DNA from: Saprospiraceae bacterium
GTDB lineage: Bacteria; Bacteroidota; Bacteroidia; Chitinophagales; Saprospiraceae
Reading direction: 5' to 3'
NCBI GenBank assembly: GCA_025056735.1
Contig: JANWVR010000029.1
Location: forward strand, 1 to 36,963
Length of the DNA stretch: 36,963 nucleotides
Positions within the stretch are counted from its first letter, which is position 1. Each line of letters begins with the position of its first letter. A program made the position numbers and the translations under genes. The notes beneath the pieces were generated by a model. That model was not told the DNA's origin and searched no databases. It worked only from the letters and a program-made list of their open reading frames with translations. Shown in pieces: positions 538 through 36,106 of the stretch.

Positions 538-591
538 GTAACCGCCGAACTTGTTCGGCCCAGTACCGGCGAAACTCGTTTGGCCGGCGCC
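538..591 (+). repeat. Two-unit copy of the GTAACCGCC hairpin repeat
   Basis: Unit A (538-557, linker GCCCA 558-562) matches the 20-nt core of the array at 32016 except at two positions, A to G in the left arm and T to C in the right arm. These two bases face each other in the stem (GCCGAAC / GTTCGGC), so the pairing is kept. The GCCCA linker is identical to linkers in the big array. Unit B (563-591) is more diverged: CCGGC and GCCGG form the outer stem and AAAC and GTTT the inner stem, with one mismatch. The element lies between the mqnC 3' end and the ATPase promoter. Confidence 0.75.
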
Positions 592-29619: not shown

Positions 29620-32019
29620 ATGGTTAAATCAAAATCAAACGCCTCTGCTCCTGCCGTTGCCCATACCATTACCGAAGCCTATCGGCAGGAAGTGCTGCGC
29701 GACTACCGCATCTGCTGCCTCAGCCGCGAAGCCAGCATCCTGGCACGCAAAGAGGTGCTCACGGGAAAAGCTAATTTCGGCATCATCGGCGACGGAAAAG
29801 AGGTCGCTCAGGTGGCCATGGCTAAGGCCTGGCGCAAGGGAGATCTACGCGCCGGCTATTACCGCGACCAGACGCTCATGCTTGCCCTCGACCTGATGAC
29901 GCTGGAAGAGTTCTTCGGCCAGCTGTACGGCGACCCTGAGAACGACCCCTTCTCCGGAGGGCGGCAGATGAATTGCCACTTCGCTACACCTTTTATAGAC
30001 GAAAACGGCGAATGGTTAGACCTGAAAAACCGATTCAACATCTCTTCGGACGTTTCGCCCACGGGCGGCCAGATGGCGCGCGCACTGGGGCTGGCGTTCG
30101 CCTCCAAAAAATTTCGAGAAAACCCGGCTCTGTGCGGTCAGCTCTCCAACAACGGTGCCGAGGTAGTCTTCTGCACCATCGGCGATGCCTCTACCTCGGA
30201 GGGCGTTTTTTGGGAGACCCTCAACGCCGCCGGCGTCTTGCAGGTACCGCTGGCTGTTTCCGTGTGGGACGACGGCTACGGCATCTCCGTACCCAAAAAG
30301 TATCAGACCGTCAAAGAAAGCATCTCAGAAGCGCTGTCGGGCTTCGAGGGCGCCATGGATATCTATCGGGCAAAGGGCTGGGACTATCCAGGGCTGTGTC
30401 GGCTCTATTCGGAGGCCATCGAGACGATGCGCCAGACGCACCGGCCTGCGCTGTTTCACATTGAACAAATGACGCAGCAGCTGGGCCACTCCACTTCTGG
30501 CGATCACCGCCGCTACAAGTCGCCCGAACGGCTGGCCTACGAAGAAGAGTACGACTGCAACCGACGCATGGCCCGCTGGATGGTCGAAACGGGCATTGCT
30601 ACCGAGGAAGAAATCGCCACCATTCAGTCAGAGGCCAAAACCGAAGTTATGGCGGCTGCGCACCGCGCCTTTCGCCACTACCACGATGCTGTGGAGGCCC
30701 AGCGCAAAGCGCTGCGCACAATCCTGCAGGCAGCTGCCGAGGCGCACCCTAACGCATATGCGTTGCCTCAACTGACCACCGAACTCGACCGCATGCGTGA
30801 GCCATTGCGCTTTGAACTGTTGCGCCTCGCTCGTCGGGCACTCTTTGCCCTGGCCGGCCAGAACAGCCGGGCGCGCCAGGAGTTGGCCGCCTTCGCTCAA
30901 CGAGAAACCCAAATCGGACGCCAATGGTACGGCACGCACCTGTACAGCCAGACGCCTCGCTCAGCACTCCGCGTGCCCGTAGAGCCGGCGCGCTTTTCCG
31001 AAAACTCGCCCCTCAAAGACGGTTATGAAATTCTAAACGCCTGCTTTGATGCCAACTTTGCGCGGTACCCTGAACTGTTCGCCTTCGGCGAAGACGTCGG
31101 CCACATTGGCGACGTGAACCAGGGCATGCGCGGTATGCAACAGAAATACGGCCCAGAGCGCGTGTTCGATACCGGTATCCGCGAATGGACCATCATGGGC
31201 CAGGCCATTGGCATGGCCATGCGCGGCTTGCGGCCCATCGCTGAAATCCAGTACTTAGATTATCTGCTCTATGGGTTGCCCGCTCTGTCAGACGACTTAG
31301 CTACCGTCCGCTGGCGCTCTGTAAATCGGCAAGCTGCCCCGGCCATCATCCGCACGCGCGGGCATCGCTTGGTGGGCGTATGGCATTCTGGCTCGCCCAT
31401 CGGCATGATGCTCGGTTCGCTCCGCGGCATGCACCTGTGTGTGCCGCGCAACATGACCCAGGCCGCTGGCATGTACAACACTCTGCTGCAAAGCGACGAC
31501 CCAGCTATCGTCATCGAATGCCTCAACGGGTACCGCATCAAAGAGCGCCTGCCCGACAACATCGGCACCTTCACCGTGCCGCTGGGCGTGCCTGAAATCG
31601 TGCGTCCGGGAGCCGACGTTACCCTCATCACCTACGGCTCCTGCGTGCGCGTAGCCGAAGAAGCCTGCGACCTACTGGCCCAATATGGTATCTCCGTCGA
31701 AATAGTGGACGTGCAAACACTTCTGCCCTTCGACCTGCCGAACCTATGCCTTAAGTCCATTCAAAAAACCAATCGCGTCGTCTTCTTAGACGAAGACTTC
31801 CAGGGGGGCGCCAGCGCCTACATGCTCCAGCAAGTATTGGAAAAACAAGGCGCCTACCGCTACTTAGACTCGGCGCCCGTTACCCTCACTGCACCCGACC
31901 ACCGGCCTGCTTACGGCCAGGACGGCGACTATTTTAGCAAACCTCAAGTAGAAGACGTCGCCGAAACCATCTACACCCTCATGCGCGAAGCCGAACCCGC
32001 AAGGTTCCCCCCCCTGTAA
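29620..32019 (+). CDS. 2-oxoacid dehydrogenase E1, fused alpha and beta subunits
   Basis: The 799-residue protein joins an E1-alpha half (about 1-440) and an E1-beta half (from about 465). The alpha half has the thiamine diphosphate segment GDASTSEG (from Gly188) through SVWDDGYGIS (Asp217/218), where many E1 enzymes have NN. The beta half starts KDGYEILNACFDANFARYPELFAFGEDVG and contains FDTGIREWTIMGQAIGMAM and VVFLDEDFQGGASAY. It decarboxylates a 2-oxo acid (branched-chain or pyruvate) and passes the acyl group to lipoyl-E2. E2 and E3 are not in the window. Fused E1 forms are common in Bacteroidota. The stop TAA (32017-32019) lies inside the first unit of the hairpin array and is preceded by eight C (32007-32014). 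Confidence 0.93.
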   Translation: MVKSKSNASAPAVAHTITEAYRQEVLRDYRICCLSREASILARKEVLTGKANFGIIGDGKEVAQVAMAKAWRKGDLRAGYYRDQTLMLALDLMTLEEFFGQLYGDPENDPFSGGRQMNCHFATPFIDENGEWLDLKNRFNISSDVSPTGGQMARALGLAFASKKFRENPALCGQLSNNGAEVVFCTIGDASTSEGVFWETLNAAGVLQVPLAVSVWDDGYGISVPKKYQTVKESISEALSGFEGAMDIYRAKGWDYPGLCRLYSEAIETMRQTHRPALFHIEQMTQQLGHSTSGDHRRYKSPERLAYEEEYDCNRRMARWMVETGIATEEEIATIQSEAKTEVMAAAHRAFRHYHDAVEAQRKALRTILQAAAEAHPNAYALPQLTTELDRMREPLRFELLRLARRALFALAGQNSRARQELAAFAQRETQIGRQWYGTHLYSQTPRSALRVPVEPARFSENSPLKDGYEILNACFDANFARYPELFAFGEDVGHIGDVNQGMRGMQQKYGPERVFDTGIREWTIMGQAIGMAMRGLRPIAEIQYLDYLLYGLPALSDDLATVRWRSVNRQAAPAIIRTRGHRLVGVWHSGSPIGMMLGSLRGMHLCVPRNMTQAAGMYNTLLQSDDPAIVIECLNGYRIKERLPDNIGTFTVPLGVPEIVRPGADVTLITYGSCVRVAEEACDLLAQYGISVEIVDVQTLLPFDLPNLCLKSIQKTNRVVFLDEDFQGGASAYMLQQVLEKQGAYRYLDSAPVTLTAPDHRPAYGQDGDYFSKPQVEDVAETIYTLMREAEPARFPPL

Positions 32020-32268
32020 CCGCCAAACTTGTTTGCCCAGTAACCGCCAAACTTGTTTGGCCACAGTAACCGCCAAACTTGTTTGGCCGCAGTAACCGCC
32101 AAACTTGTTTGCCCACAGTAACCGCCAAACTTGTTTGCCCACAGTAACCGCCAAACTTGTTTGGCCCAGTAACCGCCAAACTTGTTTGGCCCAGTAACCG
32201 CCAAACTTGTTTGCCCACAGTAACCGCCAAACTTGTTTGGCCAAAGTAACCGCCAAACTTGTTTGGCC
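32016..32268 (+). repeat. Ten-unit tandem array of CUUG-type hairpins
   Basis: Ten cores begin at 32016, 32040, 32066, 32092, 32118, 32144, 32169, 32194, 32220 and 32246. All read GTAACCGCCAAACTTGTTTG without a single difference. The linkers are CCCA, GCCACA, GCCGCA, CCCACA, CCCACA, GCCCA, GCCCA, CCCACA and GCCAAA, so the period is 24-26 nt. Where the linker starts with G, the arms GCCAAAC and GTTTGGC pair over 7 bp around TT; the other units keep CAAAC/GTTTG. As plus-strand RNA the loop is CUUG, a known stable tetraloop. Linkers starting with C break one pair. The array fills most of the E1-HMGR spacer. Related copies lie at 538, 696 and 14957. Confidence 0.97.
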
Positions 32269-32294
32269 CTTTCATGAACTTCCCCACTCGCCAA

Positions 32295-32302
32295 TAGTTT
32301 TG
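32295..32302 (+). promoter_or_regulatory. -7 box (TAGTTTTG) of the HMG-CoA reductase gene
   Basis: An exact TAnnTTTG match lies 26 nt after the end of the hairpin array and about 65 nt before the ATG at 32367. It suggests that the reductase gene has its own promoter. The nearest TTTG upstream (32262-32265, inside the last array unit) is farther away than the usual -33 spacing. Confidence 0.45.
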
Positions 32303-32366
32303 TACCCACGTCAAGCGACCGTATTTTCATTGAAACAAAACCCTGTCTCTTACCGGCTATTTCATT

Positions 32367-33698
32367 ATGGCAAAAACAGTTACGGGCTTTTCAAAGTGGA
32401 GCAAGGCGCAGAAGATCGAGTGGCTCGCGCAGAACTTTTTTTCCGACCCCCAGGCGGCTCAGGCGGCATTGACGGCCTGGCATCGGCCCGAAGAAGAGCA
32501 AAAGATTATTGACAGTTTTACGGAAAACGCCATCAGCAATTATACTCTCCCTTTCAGCGTGGCACCTAACTTTCGCATTAACGGTAAAGATTATGCGGTG
32601 CCCATGGTGATTGAGGAGAGCAGCGTGGTGGCGGCGGCCTCCAGCGCAGCGCGTTTTTGGTTAGATCGCGGCGGTTTTCACGCCGAGGTGCTCGGCACCG
32701 TTAAACTGGGCCAGATACATTTTCGCTGGGGTGGCTGTTCGGAGCGTTTGCGAGCACTCTTTCCGCGTCTGGAGTCGCATTTGAAAAGCAGCTGCGACGA
32801 CCTGACGGCCAACATGCGTCGACGTGGAGGCGGCATTTTGGGAGTAGAGTTGCTGAATTTCACCCATCTTGAACCCCATTATTACCAGCTGCGCGTGTCG
32901 TTTGAGACCTGCGACAGCATGGGCGCTAATTTTATCAATTCCGTGCTGGAGCGTATGGGCGACCAGTTGGAGTACTTTTTAGAAAGCGAACCCGAGCTGA
33001 CCGATGCTGAGCGCGACGTAGAGGTGATCATGTGCATCCTCTCCAACTTCACACCCAACTGTTTAGTGCGCGCTTGGGTGGAGTGTCCGGTGAGCGAGCT
33101 GGAAGATCTGGCCCAAAGCGCCGGCCTGCCGGGCCACGCTGCTGTGGATCGCTTTTGCACGGCGGTGCGCATTGCGGAGATAGATCCGTATCGGGCCGTT
33201 ACGCACAACAAAGGCATTTTCAATGGAATAGATGCAGTGGTTATCGCTACGGGCAATGACTTTCGGGCTGTAGAAGCCTGCGGGCACGCCTATGCCTGCC
33301 GCAGCGGGCAATACCGGAGTTTGAGCCGGGCGGAGGTGAAGGACGGCCAGTTTCGCTTCGAGTTGGAAGTTCCGCTGGCGGTGGGCACGGTGGGTGGCCT
33401 GACGGCGCTGCATCCGTTAGCCAAACAGGCGTTGGAGATGTTGGGCAATCCTTCAGCTACGGAGCTGATGACCATCATCGCTGCCGTTGGGCTGGCGCAA
33501 AACTTCGCCGCTGTGCGTTCGTTGGTAACGACGGGCATCCAAGACGGGCACATGCGCATGCACCTGAACAACATCCTGCTCCACCTGGGCGCTACAGAGG
33601 CGGAGAGCGAGGCCGCTCGCAGCCATTTTCAGGGGCAGACGGTTAGTTACAGCGGCGTTCGCGCTTTTTTGGAGCGTCTGCGCGCAGTGCCGGTCTAA
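32367..33698 (+). CDS. mvaA: Hydroxymethylglutaryl-CoA reductase, class II (bacterial type)
   Basis: The 443-residue enzyme interconverts HMG-CoA and mevalonate with NAD(P)H in the cytoplasm. Catalytic residues expected for the family are visible: Glu83 (PMVIEESSVVAAAS), Lys282 (THNKGIFNG), Asp298 (ATGNDFRAVEA) and His395 (IQDGHMRMHLNN). DSMGANFIN (183-191) is the cofactor-binding motif. There is no membrane domain, unlike class I enzymes. Its presence suggests isoprenoid synthesis through mevalonate, which occurs in some Bacteroidota lineages, although class II enzymes can also run in the degradative direction. No other mevalonate gene is nearby. The stop codon overlaps the convergent TonB receptor by 4 nt. 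Confidence 0.93.
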   Translation: MAKTVTGFSKWSKAQKIEWLAQNFFSDPQAAQAALTAWHRPEEEQKIIDSFTENAISNYTLPFSVAPNFRINGKDYAVPMVIEESSVVAAASSAARFWLDRGGFHAEVLGTVKLGQIHFRWGGCSERLRALFPRLESHLKSSCDDLTANMRRRGGGILGVELLNFTHLEPHYYQLRVSFETCDSMGANFINSVLERMGDQLEYFLESEPELTDAERDVEVIMCILSNFTPNCLVRAWVECPVSELEDLAQSAGLPGHAAVDRFCTAVRIAEIDPYRAVTHNKGIFNGIDAVVIATGNDFRAVEACGHAYACRSGQYRSLSRAEVKDGQFRFELEVPLAVGTVGGLTALHPLAKQALEMLGNPSATELMTIIAAVGLAQNFAAVRSLVTTGIQDGHMRMHLNNILLHLGATEAESEAARSHFQGQTVSYSGVRAFLERLRAVPV

Positions 33699-36106
33699 TC
33701 AAGTTTATAGCTGACGCCTACGCGCATTAAGCGACGCGGCTGCGGGTTGTACAGCAAGTCGTCGGGCGTCTGGGTAGCGTCTATGCCGGCGTAGCGGCGG
33801 TTGAACAGATTGCGCGCTTCCACGTAGGCCGAGAAGTAGTTGCTCAGGAAGAGGCGAAATGTCAGGTCGAACGTGGCGAAGTTGGGCAGCGCAGCGGGTG
33901 TTTGCGAGCGTTGATAGCGCGCAGAATAGGCCACAACGCTACTGCTCATGGTTGCGCCGCGCAGATAGAAGATATTGGCTTCCCATCTTCGGCCAAAGGC
34001 CAGCAGGCGCAGTTGCGTCAGCCGGCGCGGGAAGTTGCGCACATCGGACAGGGCCGGGCGGTCGTCGCCAAACCATTCTTGACCGCGGCTATACTGGAAG
34101 GCGTATTCGACATGCAAGCCTACCTCGTTTTTGCCTAAATCCTCCCGGTGCATGCGCGAGTGAAACAGCTGCCGCCCCAGCACGGCCTGGATACCCCAGA
34201 GGCGCAGGGCTAAGTCGGGCGTCTGCCGAAAGCCATAGCGCCAACCAGCGTCGGTGAGCGTCATATGGCCGTCTCGGGTCAGTTGGCGGGCTTCTTGATA
34301 AAAAGCAATGACTTCCACGGAAGCGTACTTTTGAAGGCGAAGCCCCATTTCGGCGGCGCGCGTGCGTTCGGGCAGGCCGATGAGTGCCTCGTCAGCAATA
34401 AGCGGGCGGGCATCGGTAGGGCCTCCTCTGCCCAGCCAATAGGTATGTGCGGCACGGAAGGCCAGCGGGCGCTGGAAGCCTTCGGCGTATGTCAGCCGTG
34501 CCGACAGGCTGCTGTCGAAGGCATGGCGCAAGGCCAAACGCGGCGCCAGCACAGGTAAACCTCCAGAGGCCGCCTGGAGGGCCACGCCCCCAAGCAAAAA
34601 CGAGCGTTGCGTACGCCATGTTCCCTGCGCAAAAAGGTTGGCGTCTGCGGTCGTCTGGTTGCCTACGGGTATCGGCAAGTCAACGGGTGGGTCAGTACTG
34701 CCGCCGACCGATGTGGTTACGGGCGTTCGGAAATAGCCCATGGGCGGCACGCCGCCGGCCACATTGACCTGCAGGCCGGCATCCAGGCTGAGGCGCGGCG
34801 TCAGGGCCGTGTGCCGACGCGACTCCAAGCGCAGGTCTATGCCGTTGGCGGTTTGGTAACGTTCTTCGTCGGCGTAGCGCTGGGCCAGCGCCCGTATCAG
34901 CTGGCGGCGTTCGTCGTCGGTAGTGGGCGTTTGCGCGGCATAGAGGGCAGCGCTAAGCCCGTCGAACACGGGCGCAAAGGCCGATGAGCCTTGCACCGAA
35001 TAGCGCATAAACGACAGCAGGTGCGAAGTTGTCGTGCGTCTGCGCGTGCGCTGGAGGCCAGCTGCAAAGACCTCTATTTGTTCGGCCACGCGGTTCGATG
35101 GGTTGGCATACGAGGCCGCCAGCGGACTCAGCCCCAGGCTGCTGTGCTCGAAGCGGCTCATGCGATGGTATTGAAAACGGATGCCGCGCCAGGTGAAATG
35201 CAGCCCCAGCAGGCGGCTTTCGTGCGGAATGGCCGCCGTGCGCGCTACCGAGTCTCCCGGCGTCTGCGGGCGATAGTTAGGCAACAGCCGCAGCAAGGAG
35301 GTGTCTAAGCCAAAAGGCAAGTAATGGGCCGGCACAAACAGCCGGTTGTCGTAGTAATAATCGGTGGCCTCGCGCACAGTACTGCTGCCGTAAAGGCTGA
35401 ATCGGAAGCTGTTTTTGCCTTGAAAGAGCTTGCCGCCCAGCGTCAGGTCGAGGCGATTAAAACCGTAATTGCCCAGAGAGAGATCAGCCTGTGTGTAAAC
35501 CGGGCGTTCGCTTTCCCTTAAAATTAAATTAATCACTGCCGCACAGGCGCCGTCGCCGTAAACAGCGGAGGCTGGGCCGATGAGCACTTCGATGCGCTCG
35601 CATTGGCTCAGCGGCAGCTGCGCCCCAATGGGCATGCCCGGCGCCGCCGAAGGGCGTATCGGAACGTCGTTGATGAGCACCTTCGTGTAGGCGTTGCCTC
35701 GAAGCCCGCGCACTAAGAAAAGCTCGCCTTCCAGCGCGTTGCCCGGCTGCGATACACGCACGCCCGGCACAGCCCGAAGCACATCGGCCAGTGTCACAAA
35801 ACCATGGCGCGCAATCTCTTGCGCTGTAAACACCCATACCGTGTGCGGCAAGTCCTCCACCCGGTCTAAAGAGCGCGTAGCGGAAATGGCCAGACGCTCC
35901 AGCGCGTCCGTGCGGCGAACCTGAACGTTCGTATCCGAAAGCACCTCTGGCACAAGGACAAATGCCGTATCCGGCTGGCCAAACAGCCCGATGGCCGTCC
36001 CCAAAAAACAACAACACACAAGCGCCCACATGCAAGGAGAGTTCGTTTCGATTGCAGGGCCAAAAGAACAAAAAAACAACGCCTCTAAAGGCCTCTGTTT
36101 TTCCAT
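33695..36106 (-). CDS. TonB-dependent outer-membrane receptor
   Basis: The protein is about 803 residues. It has a hydrophobic N-terminal segment (MWALVCCCFLGTAIGLFGQ) and a plug domain: LPHTVWVFTAQEIARHGFVTLADVLRAVPGVRV, LFLVRGLRGNAYTKVLINDVPIRP and CERIEVLIGPASAVYGDGACAAVINLI. A long beta-barrel ends YFSAYVEARNLFNRRYAG ... RRLMRVGVSYKLD, the usual last strands. It imports an unknown ligand across the outer membrane. The start is uncertain. ATG 36106 (MEKQRPLEAL) puts about 25 residues before the hydrophobic stretch, while ATG 36031 (MWALVCC) starts directly at it but lacks a positive N-region. No SusD-like partner is present. It differs clearly from the receptor at 20650. Confidence 0.88.
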   Translation of the reverse strand: MEKQRPLEALFFCSFGPAIETNSPCMWALVCCCFLGTAIGLFGQPDTAFVLVPEVLSDTNVQVRRTDALERLAISATRSLDRVEDLPHTVWVFTAQEIARHGFVTLADVLRAVPGVRVSQPGNALEGELFLVRGLRGNAYTKVLINDVPIRPSAAPGMPIGAQLPLSQCERIEVLIGPASAVYGDGACAAVINLILRESERPVYTQADLSLGNYGFNRLDLTLGGKLFQGKNSFRFSLYGSSTVREATDYYYDNRLFVPAHYLPFGLDTSLLRLLPNYRPQTPGDSVARTAAIPHESRLLGLHFTWRGIRFQYHRMSRFEHSSLGLSPLAASYANPSNRVAEQIEVFAAGLQRTRRRTTTSHLLSFMRYSVQGSSAFAPVFDGLSAALYAAQTPTTDDERRQLIRALAQRYADEERYQTANGIDLRLESRRHTALTPRLSLDAGLQVNVAGGVPPMGYFRTPVTTSVGGSTDPPVDLPIPVGNQTTADANLFAQGTWRTQRSFLLGGVALQAASGGLPVLAPRLALRHAFDSSLSARLTYAEGFQRPLAFRAAHTYWLGRGGPTDARPLIADEALIGLPERTRAAEMGLRLQKYASVEVIAFYQEARQLTRDGHMTLTDAGWRYGFRQTPDLALRLWGIQAVLGRQLFHSRMHREDLGKNEVGLHVEYAFQYSRGQEWFGDDRPALSDVRNFPRRLTQLRLLAFGRRWEANIFYLRGATMSSSVVAYSARYQRSQTPAALPNFATFDLTFRLFLSNYFSAYVEARNLFNRRYAGIDATQTPDDLLYNPQPRRLMRVGVSYKLD

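Follow-up and report, generated by a model that had tools for sequence, protein, structure and literature searches.

Ten hairpin-forming cores stand in tandem directly behind a gene for a 2-oxo acid dehydrogenase E1 component in the window, i.e. the whole 36,963-nt stretch of Saprospiraceae DNA analyzed here, which raises the question of whether they form a switch of this gene or belong to something more widespread. Exact copies of GTAACCGCCAAACTTGTTTG (n = 10) start at positions 32016, 32040, 32066, 32092, 32118, 32144, 32169, 32194, 32220, and 32246, compared to a mean of 0.01 matches in 100 shuffles, and TRF run on the window reports 32016-32268 with a period of 26 and 9.9 copies. The nine linkers of 4-6 nt take six forms (CCCA, GCCACA, GCCGCA, CCCACA three times, GCCCA twice, and GCCAAA). 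The first-pass annotation is thereby confirmed on the ten exact 20-nt cores and their variable linkers, and likewise on the start of the array at the E1 stop codon, which lies inside the first unit (Table 1).

Table 1. Positions of the array, its neighboring genes, and the second unit-bearing site in the window.
Feature	Position	Strand	Remarks
2-oxo acid dehydrogenase E1 gene, before the array	29620..32019	+	PF00676, PF02779, PF02780; start inferred
Array of ten head-to-tail REP-like units	32016..32268	+	ten exact 20-nt cores, 4-6 nt linkers
TAA stop codon of E1	32017..32019	+	bases 2-4 of the first unit
Last unit in its 23-nt form	32246..32268	+	GTAAC + hairpin (7/8 pairs); extent used for the family
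HMG-CoA reductase gene, after the array	32367..33698	+	PF00368; 98 nt past the last unit
Second site with two units	538..585	+	GTAACCGCCGAACTTGTTCGGCC, linker CA, GTACCGGCGAAACTCGTTTGGCC

Anatomy of the unit

We write the family unit as 23 nt, consisting of a GTAAC head followed by an 8-bp stem with a TT loop (GGCCAAAC-TT-GTTTGGCC), because the 3' arm runs on into what the first-pass annotation had regarded as linker. Its description of the cores as hairpins is correct in that the unit is palindromic, but the 20-nt core drops the 3' arm and the stem is damaged in four of the ten units. None of the ten window units pairs at the outermost stem position, where C faces C, and units 1, 4, 5, and 8, whose 3' arm reads GTTTGCCC, lack one additional pair; RNA folding of a single unit gives a minimum free energy of 0 kcal/mol for this form versus -6.2 for the other. 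Of the 144 units initially counted in the window genome, only 4 have this damaged-arm form, which is seen in four units of the window array. Among the units first counted in this genome and in its relative CALJPQ, the head is GTAA in 109/144 and 55/95, GTAC in 15/144 and 13/95, and GTAG in 10/144 and 13/95, respectively.

The second site in the window precedes a minus-strand AAA ATPase gene. A nearly identical pair with its flanks is found at L016:469-516, also before an AAA ATPase gene, and the same pair occurs with different flanks at L028:5552-5599, which together suggest that a gene was duplicated and a doublet copied.

Distribution among genomes

Four Saprospiraceae genomes were compared in most analyses: the window genome (G000) and three metagenome-assembled genomes (MAGs), CALJPQ (taken to be G035), CALHAM (taken to be G002), and SKYG46 (taken to be G011). 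The E1 gene is 92% identical to that of the window in CALJPQ, 91% in CALHAM (part of the gene), and 88% in SKYG46, and relatedness is judged here from E1 identity and one 8-kb region. With the 22-nt family pattern GTANCNGCCRAACTTGTTYGGC and up to two mismatches, 243 matches were obtained in the window genome, evenly divided between the strands (122:121), 124 in CALJPQ, one in CALHAM, and none in SKYG46. The array might have turned out to lack other copies in its own genome and in relatives, an outcome for which the first-pass annotation had allowed and which these 243 and 124 copies rule out.

Beyond this group, a scan of the genus with at most one mismatch left 38 of 42 genomes without a match; the remaining four are the window genome, CALJPQ, CALHAM with its one unit, and a genome (G019) with a single mismatched site, which we take as chance. 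Within the order, an even draw of 396 genomes from a larger group, in which CALJPQ was not included, gave three with the exact pattern, namely the window genome, CALHAM, and a member of another genus of the family (G255). In the latter, L239:1501-1522 is a single long perfect palindrome that contains the unit sequence and its complement. Since the genus and order scans give just single matches elsewhere, the family is present in numbers in two species only. Twenty contig starts not picked for units (220,811 bp) contained five units in two clusters, with about 14 expected from the genome-wide density.

The palindrome (14-18 nt, either strand form) was not found in the literature searched, which excluded subscription papers and preprints. 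A plasmid-borne element was rejected after no blastn match was found in PLSDB, as was a phage-borne one: the exact pattern matches two IMG/VR contigs, but one match lies inside an open frame (L133) and the other contig is nearly identical in sequence (L134), so that both were taken as chance. A weak recurrent match in CALHAM was traced to low-complexity TTTTCACTTTTCAC in the query. A low-complexity repeat of the TTTTCACTTTTCCAC type at L030:12002-12070, to which several places in CALHAM have short matches, has no relation to the hairpins studied here.

The E1 locus compared among three genomes

The E1 loci of the window genome, CALJPQ (L033), and SKYG46 (L047) carry ten, one, and no units behind the gene, respectively. 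With ten units here, one in CALJPQ, and dozens of sites elsewhere, the array is one case of a dispersed family and not an E1-specific switch. In CALJPQ, the unit reads GTAGCGGCCAAACTTGTTTGGCC and provides the stop codon TAG. Once it is removed, the E1 gene ends in TTC CCC CTC TCC CCG TGA, with the old TGA in frame, and the SKYG46 gene ends in TTC CCG CCA CTC CAC TGA; the distance from the TTC codon to TGA is thus 18 nt in both, with different letters. Because these lengths agree, a 23-bp insertion into the last E1 codons without target duplication would explain this one site. The window flank past the array is out of frame, and at three other sites the outgroup flanks are too diverged for such a comparison. 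Excision of the element at stop-supplying sites (11 of 13 in the window genome and 18 of 18 in CALJPQ) did not generally restore an early in-frame stop.

Shared sites and growth of arrays

We examined stretches totaling 609 kb of the window genome (57 clusters of units) and 400 kb of CALJPQ (59 clusters). Of the 57 clusters, 36 are matched by an element at the corresponding place in CALJPQ, two of these sharing a partner with another cluster owing to contig breaks, while three correspond to a place without the element, a number under-counted because the CALJPQ stretches were also picked for holding units, and 18 could not be mapped. As at least 36 of the 57 clusters are matched in this way, much of the dispersal is older than the split of the two species. 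Units compared across shared sites resemble each other no more than those of random site pairs (similarity of 0.888 vs. 0.883), and either constraint or exchange across the genome would lead to this pattern.

The number of units differs mostly in one direction. The window genome has more units at 30 of the 36 matched sites, equally many at five, and fewer at one (28, 5, and 1 of 34 when the contig-split doubles are dropped), an excess that is inflated because most of its stretches were picked for holding units. The whole-genome counts given above point in the same direction, as does the maximum of three units in the 59 CALJPQ clusters. The direction of change between the species was read from private variants, without an outgroup.

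Within the window genome, identical linker pairs make up 0.56 of the pairs within arrays, compared to 0.08 in shuffles (maximum of 0.16; 37 arrays). Since linkers match seven times more often than in shuffles, the arrays of this genome grew by local tandem duplication. The first-pass annotation had left open whether the identical cores reflect recent amplification or selection on the core, and for the window array the linker identity decides in favor of amplification. The cores alone carry a small signal (0.902 within clusters vs. 0.893 for random units, standard deviation of 0.004). In CALJPQ, units within clusters are no more alike than random ones (0.859 vs. 0.853, standard deviation of 0.006), and none of its four arrays with two or more linkers has an identical linker pair. 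Evidence for duplication is thus limited to the window genome and has no counterpart in the units or linkers of CALJPQ. Neighboring units are spaced by 25 or 26 nt at 124 of 148 distances in the window genome and at 28 of 35 in CALJPQ.

CRISPR spacers are regular, mostly unique, and some 25-45 nt long. The linkers here measure 4-6 nt at 128 of the 148 neighbor distances in the window genome and are often repeated within an array, and the first-pass annotation was right not to regard the array as a CRISPR.

Several sites deserve separate mention. At L024:8206-8536, a 77-bp block comprising one unit and its downstream flank is present five times at the stop codon of a gene, where CALJPQ has two plain units. 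Three tandem blocks of ~80-90 bp, each with a gene 3' end and a reversed unit, are found at L027:3542-3737, and CALJPQ has no unit there. At one matched site (L032:4637 and L157:11827), the units have opposite orientations in the two species.

Relation to known repeat classes

Broadly defined, the REP class includes this family: the unit is a palindrome in the 20-40 bp range (23 nt, 8-bp stem, 2-nt loop), it is present in more than 100 copies per genome in both species, and only 1 of 57 and 1 of 59 clusters lie mainly in coding sequence (CDS). The suggestion of the first-pass annotation that the array may be a REP-like element is thereby borne out, as the family is dispersed, extragenic, palindromic, and REP-shaped. 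In build, it is closest to the SM3 REP of S. maltophilia, listed as GTAGwTGCCAACCTTGGTTGGCA (PMC3686654 Table 2), with which it has in common a 4-nt tag, one spacer base, an 8-bp stem, a TT loop, and a length of 23 nt.

REPs of the GTAG superfamily are described as extragenic, with tags that often provide stop codons and with units reiterated in tandem together with flanking DNA (PMC3733652). That superfamily carries a GTAG (or GTGG) tag at one end. The units studied here also have a one-sided tag, but it is GTAA in most of them and GTAG in only 10/144 and 13/95, no cognate RAYT (a Y1 transposase, PF01797) was found in the window genome or in CALJPQ, and the arrays run head-to-tail. Given the predominance of GTAA tags and the negative RAYT search, we keep the family out of the GTAG superfamily. 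REPINs and BIMEs, which also form intergenic clusters of REP units, pair these units in inverted orientation (PMC3686654), whereas mixed orientations are seen here in only 4 of 57 clusters in the window genome and 1 of 59 in CALJPQ.

REP classes without a cognate RAYT are reported to appear quite often (PMC3686654), and some REP species may miss RAYT-REP units (PMC3733652). The missing RAYT is a likeness to such orphan REPs, for which a model of RAYT loss expects gradual decay (PMC3686654), but the arrays of the window genome are tandemly amplified. With VNTRs or minisatellites, the arrays have in common the local duplication and a unit number that varies between relatives; they differ in that the unit is dispersed at many sites and its palindrome is kept by paired changes.

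A possible mobilizer

The first-pass annotation had proposed to look for a REP-type transposase gene, and this search found no PF01797 protein in the window genome or in CALJPQ. At E ≤ 0.001, the profile has no match in these two genomes, CALHAM, or SKYG46, and at E ≤ 10 just one (E of 0.31), inside a 2595-aa frame of the window genome. PF01797 is present in 33 of 41 genomes of the genus, the eight without it including all four. No GTAN-headed perfect hairpin was seen at 20 RAYT loci of other members of the genus (a subset of the matches, without a positive control), and we set aside the idea that RAYT-bearing relatives have REPs of this kind in common. A difference in SbcD between the genomes was likewise rejected, as each of the four has one match below the curated cut-off and these are alike.

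Taken together, we consider it likely that the array arose by local amplification from one copy of a dispersed REP-like element, abundant in only two close species of one Saprospiraceae genus. This element, a short palindrome located outside genes and headed on one side by GTA[A/C/G]C, would have been dispersed by single-strand transposition of the hairpin through a Y1-type (RAYT-like) enzyme that may since have been lost. We infer transposition of the RAYT kind from a hairpin with a head at one end, from an insertion that is likely clean, and from units spread over both strands. Tandem growth of the 25/26-bp unit would then proceed by replication slippage or unequal exchange between palindromic direct repeats, probably the simplest cause of array growth. 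Against this explanation stand the absent RAYT, the mostly GTAA tag, the insertion that rests on one site, the excision result, and the units of CALJPQ, which are no more alike within a cluster than at random.

An alternative would be that a trans-acting enzyme other than a RAYT still recognizes the hairpin and is behind the dispersal of units as well as the growth of arrays. Additional units could then enter behind an existing tail, where GGCCCA resembles the CCC[A/C/T] motif before heads. Heads are indeed preceded by a C-rich tetranucleotide, with C at -3 in 22 of 28 clusters in the window genome and 44 of 58 in CALJPQ (the count covering 28 of 33 and 58 of 59 clusters, respectively). The larger arrays at many sites of the window genome are consistent with such an activity, as are the doublets of CALJPQ, which already have the 25/26-nt spacing although their units are no more alike than random. 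However, the search, made with PF01797 only, provided no candidate enzyme, the linker homogeneity within arrays of the window genome fits duplication better than repeated insertion, and a partner is missing at only 3 of 39 mapped clusters, in CALJPQ stretches picked for units. Altogether, we regard such an enzyme as unlikely. Similarly doubtful is the wider proposition that a REP-like family without a RAYT, which was either lost or never present, grew in step at many sites of one species because palindromic direct repeats were acted on by some host-wide or trans-acting activity other than a known REP transposase.

Conservation of the palindrome

Unit positions 11, 12, and 17 are near-invariant, and two-sided stem changes are seen from G-C to A-T, C-G to T-A, and A-T to G-C. 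The 108 distinct units contain 35 double-changed canonical cells, versus 10.5 on average and at most 18 in 1000 shuffles that take the units as independent and do not control for their relatedness; the number of extra pair types (17) equals the shuffle maximum. These compensatory changes preserve the palindrome and fit a folded strand and a dyad-symmetric duplex site alike. They are thus equally suited to a multi-site protein-binding array with 25/26-bp phasing, i.e. operator or nucleoid-protein sites, for which the near-invariant inner palindrome and the regular spacing also speak, together with the similarity at matched sites, which is as expected under constraint. Still, the two species vary freely in the number of units, which occur in all orientations on either side of genes as well as between them, and one position has lost half of its symmetry in four window units, making protein binding quite unlikely as the explanation of the array.

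Position relative to genes and stop codons

Genes were called with a custom codon-usage script, by which 82% of the DNA examined in the window genome and 84% in CALJPQ is coding. The very small number of clusters mainly within called CDS and the even strand split answer the two points on extragenic bias and orientation that the first-pass annotation had named for checking. Where the head of a cluster faces a gene 3' end, unit bases 2-4 provide the stop codon in 13 of 27 cases in the window genome and 18 of 33 in CALJPQ; TAA or TAG within the unit is thus the stop codon of many genes, among them E1. Heads and tails face gene 3' ends equally often (27:29 in the window genome and 33:35 in CALJPQ).

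T4 tracts were counted in 51 of the 57 and 58 of the 59 clusters, all same-strand. A tract within 12 nt 3' of the hairpin was found in 1 of 51 and 2 of 58 in the sense direction and in 1 of 51 and 3 of 58 in antisense. In addition to this rarity of U-tracts, the region near E1 has just one terminator-like site, which lies on the minus strand and does not exceed the shuffled expectation (one found vs. a shuffle mean of 1.5), and an intrinsic terminator was rejected. A search of positions 30500-33800 in Rfam gave no match at E ≤ 1, by which a known RNA family was ruled out.

These data bear on the first-pass proposal of an array that protects or attenuates the 3' end of an mRNA. As a selected RNA element of the E1 transcript, stacked CUUG hairpins would act in 3' protection, attenuation, or termination, in line with the location directly at the stop codon, the palindrome kept across the family, and a region that folds better than shuffles (z of -6.13), but tandem palindromes fold well for trivial reasons. 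Moreover, CALJPQ has one unit behind E1 and SKYG46 none, larger arrays occur elsewhere, and the stem is broken in four window units. Together with the rare U-tracts, the missing Rfam match, and the lack of a head or tail bias, this makes a selected RNA element very unlikely, and the proposal is not supported. Most likely, the ten units do nothing specific at E1 beyond providing the stop codon.

An assembler-made unit number is hardly credible, since the window array is bridged, its linkers differ, and the unit also occurs in the separate CALJPQ assembly and, once, in CALHAM, even though contigs C10, C11, C28, C48, C53, C61, and C110 of the window genome end inside units or within ~100 bp of them, where the real number may exceed the assembled one.

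Implications

The finding is real but centers on the family and not on E1, a gene for which it is ordinary. Our verdict is a new RAYT-less REP-like family with tandem expansion. What stands out is that, at many sites of a genome with no detectable RAYT, array sizes differ mostly in one direction. One model holds that REPs persist only while their RAYT is active (PMC3686654). Here, two close species, both with no detectable PF01797 protein, share many REP-like sites at which unit numbers differ mostly one way. Comparing the two opens a way to study the forces that maintain or expand orphan REPs, as well as the frequency with which host genes come to take their stop codon from a dispersed palindrome.
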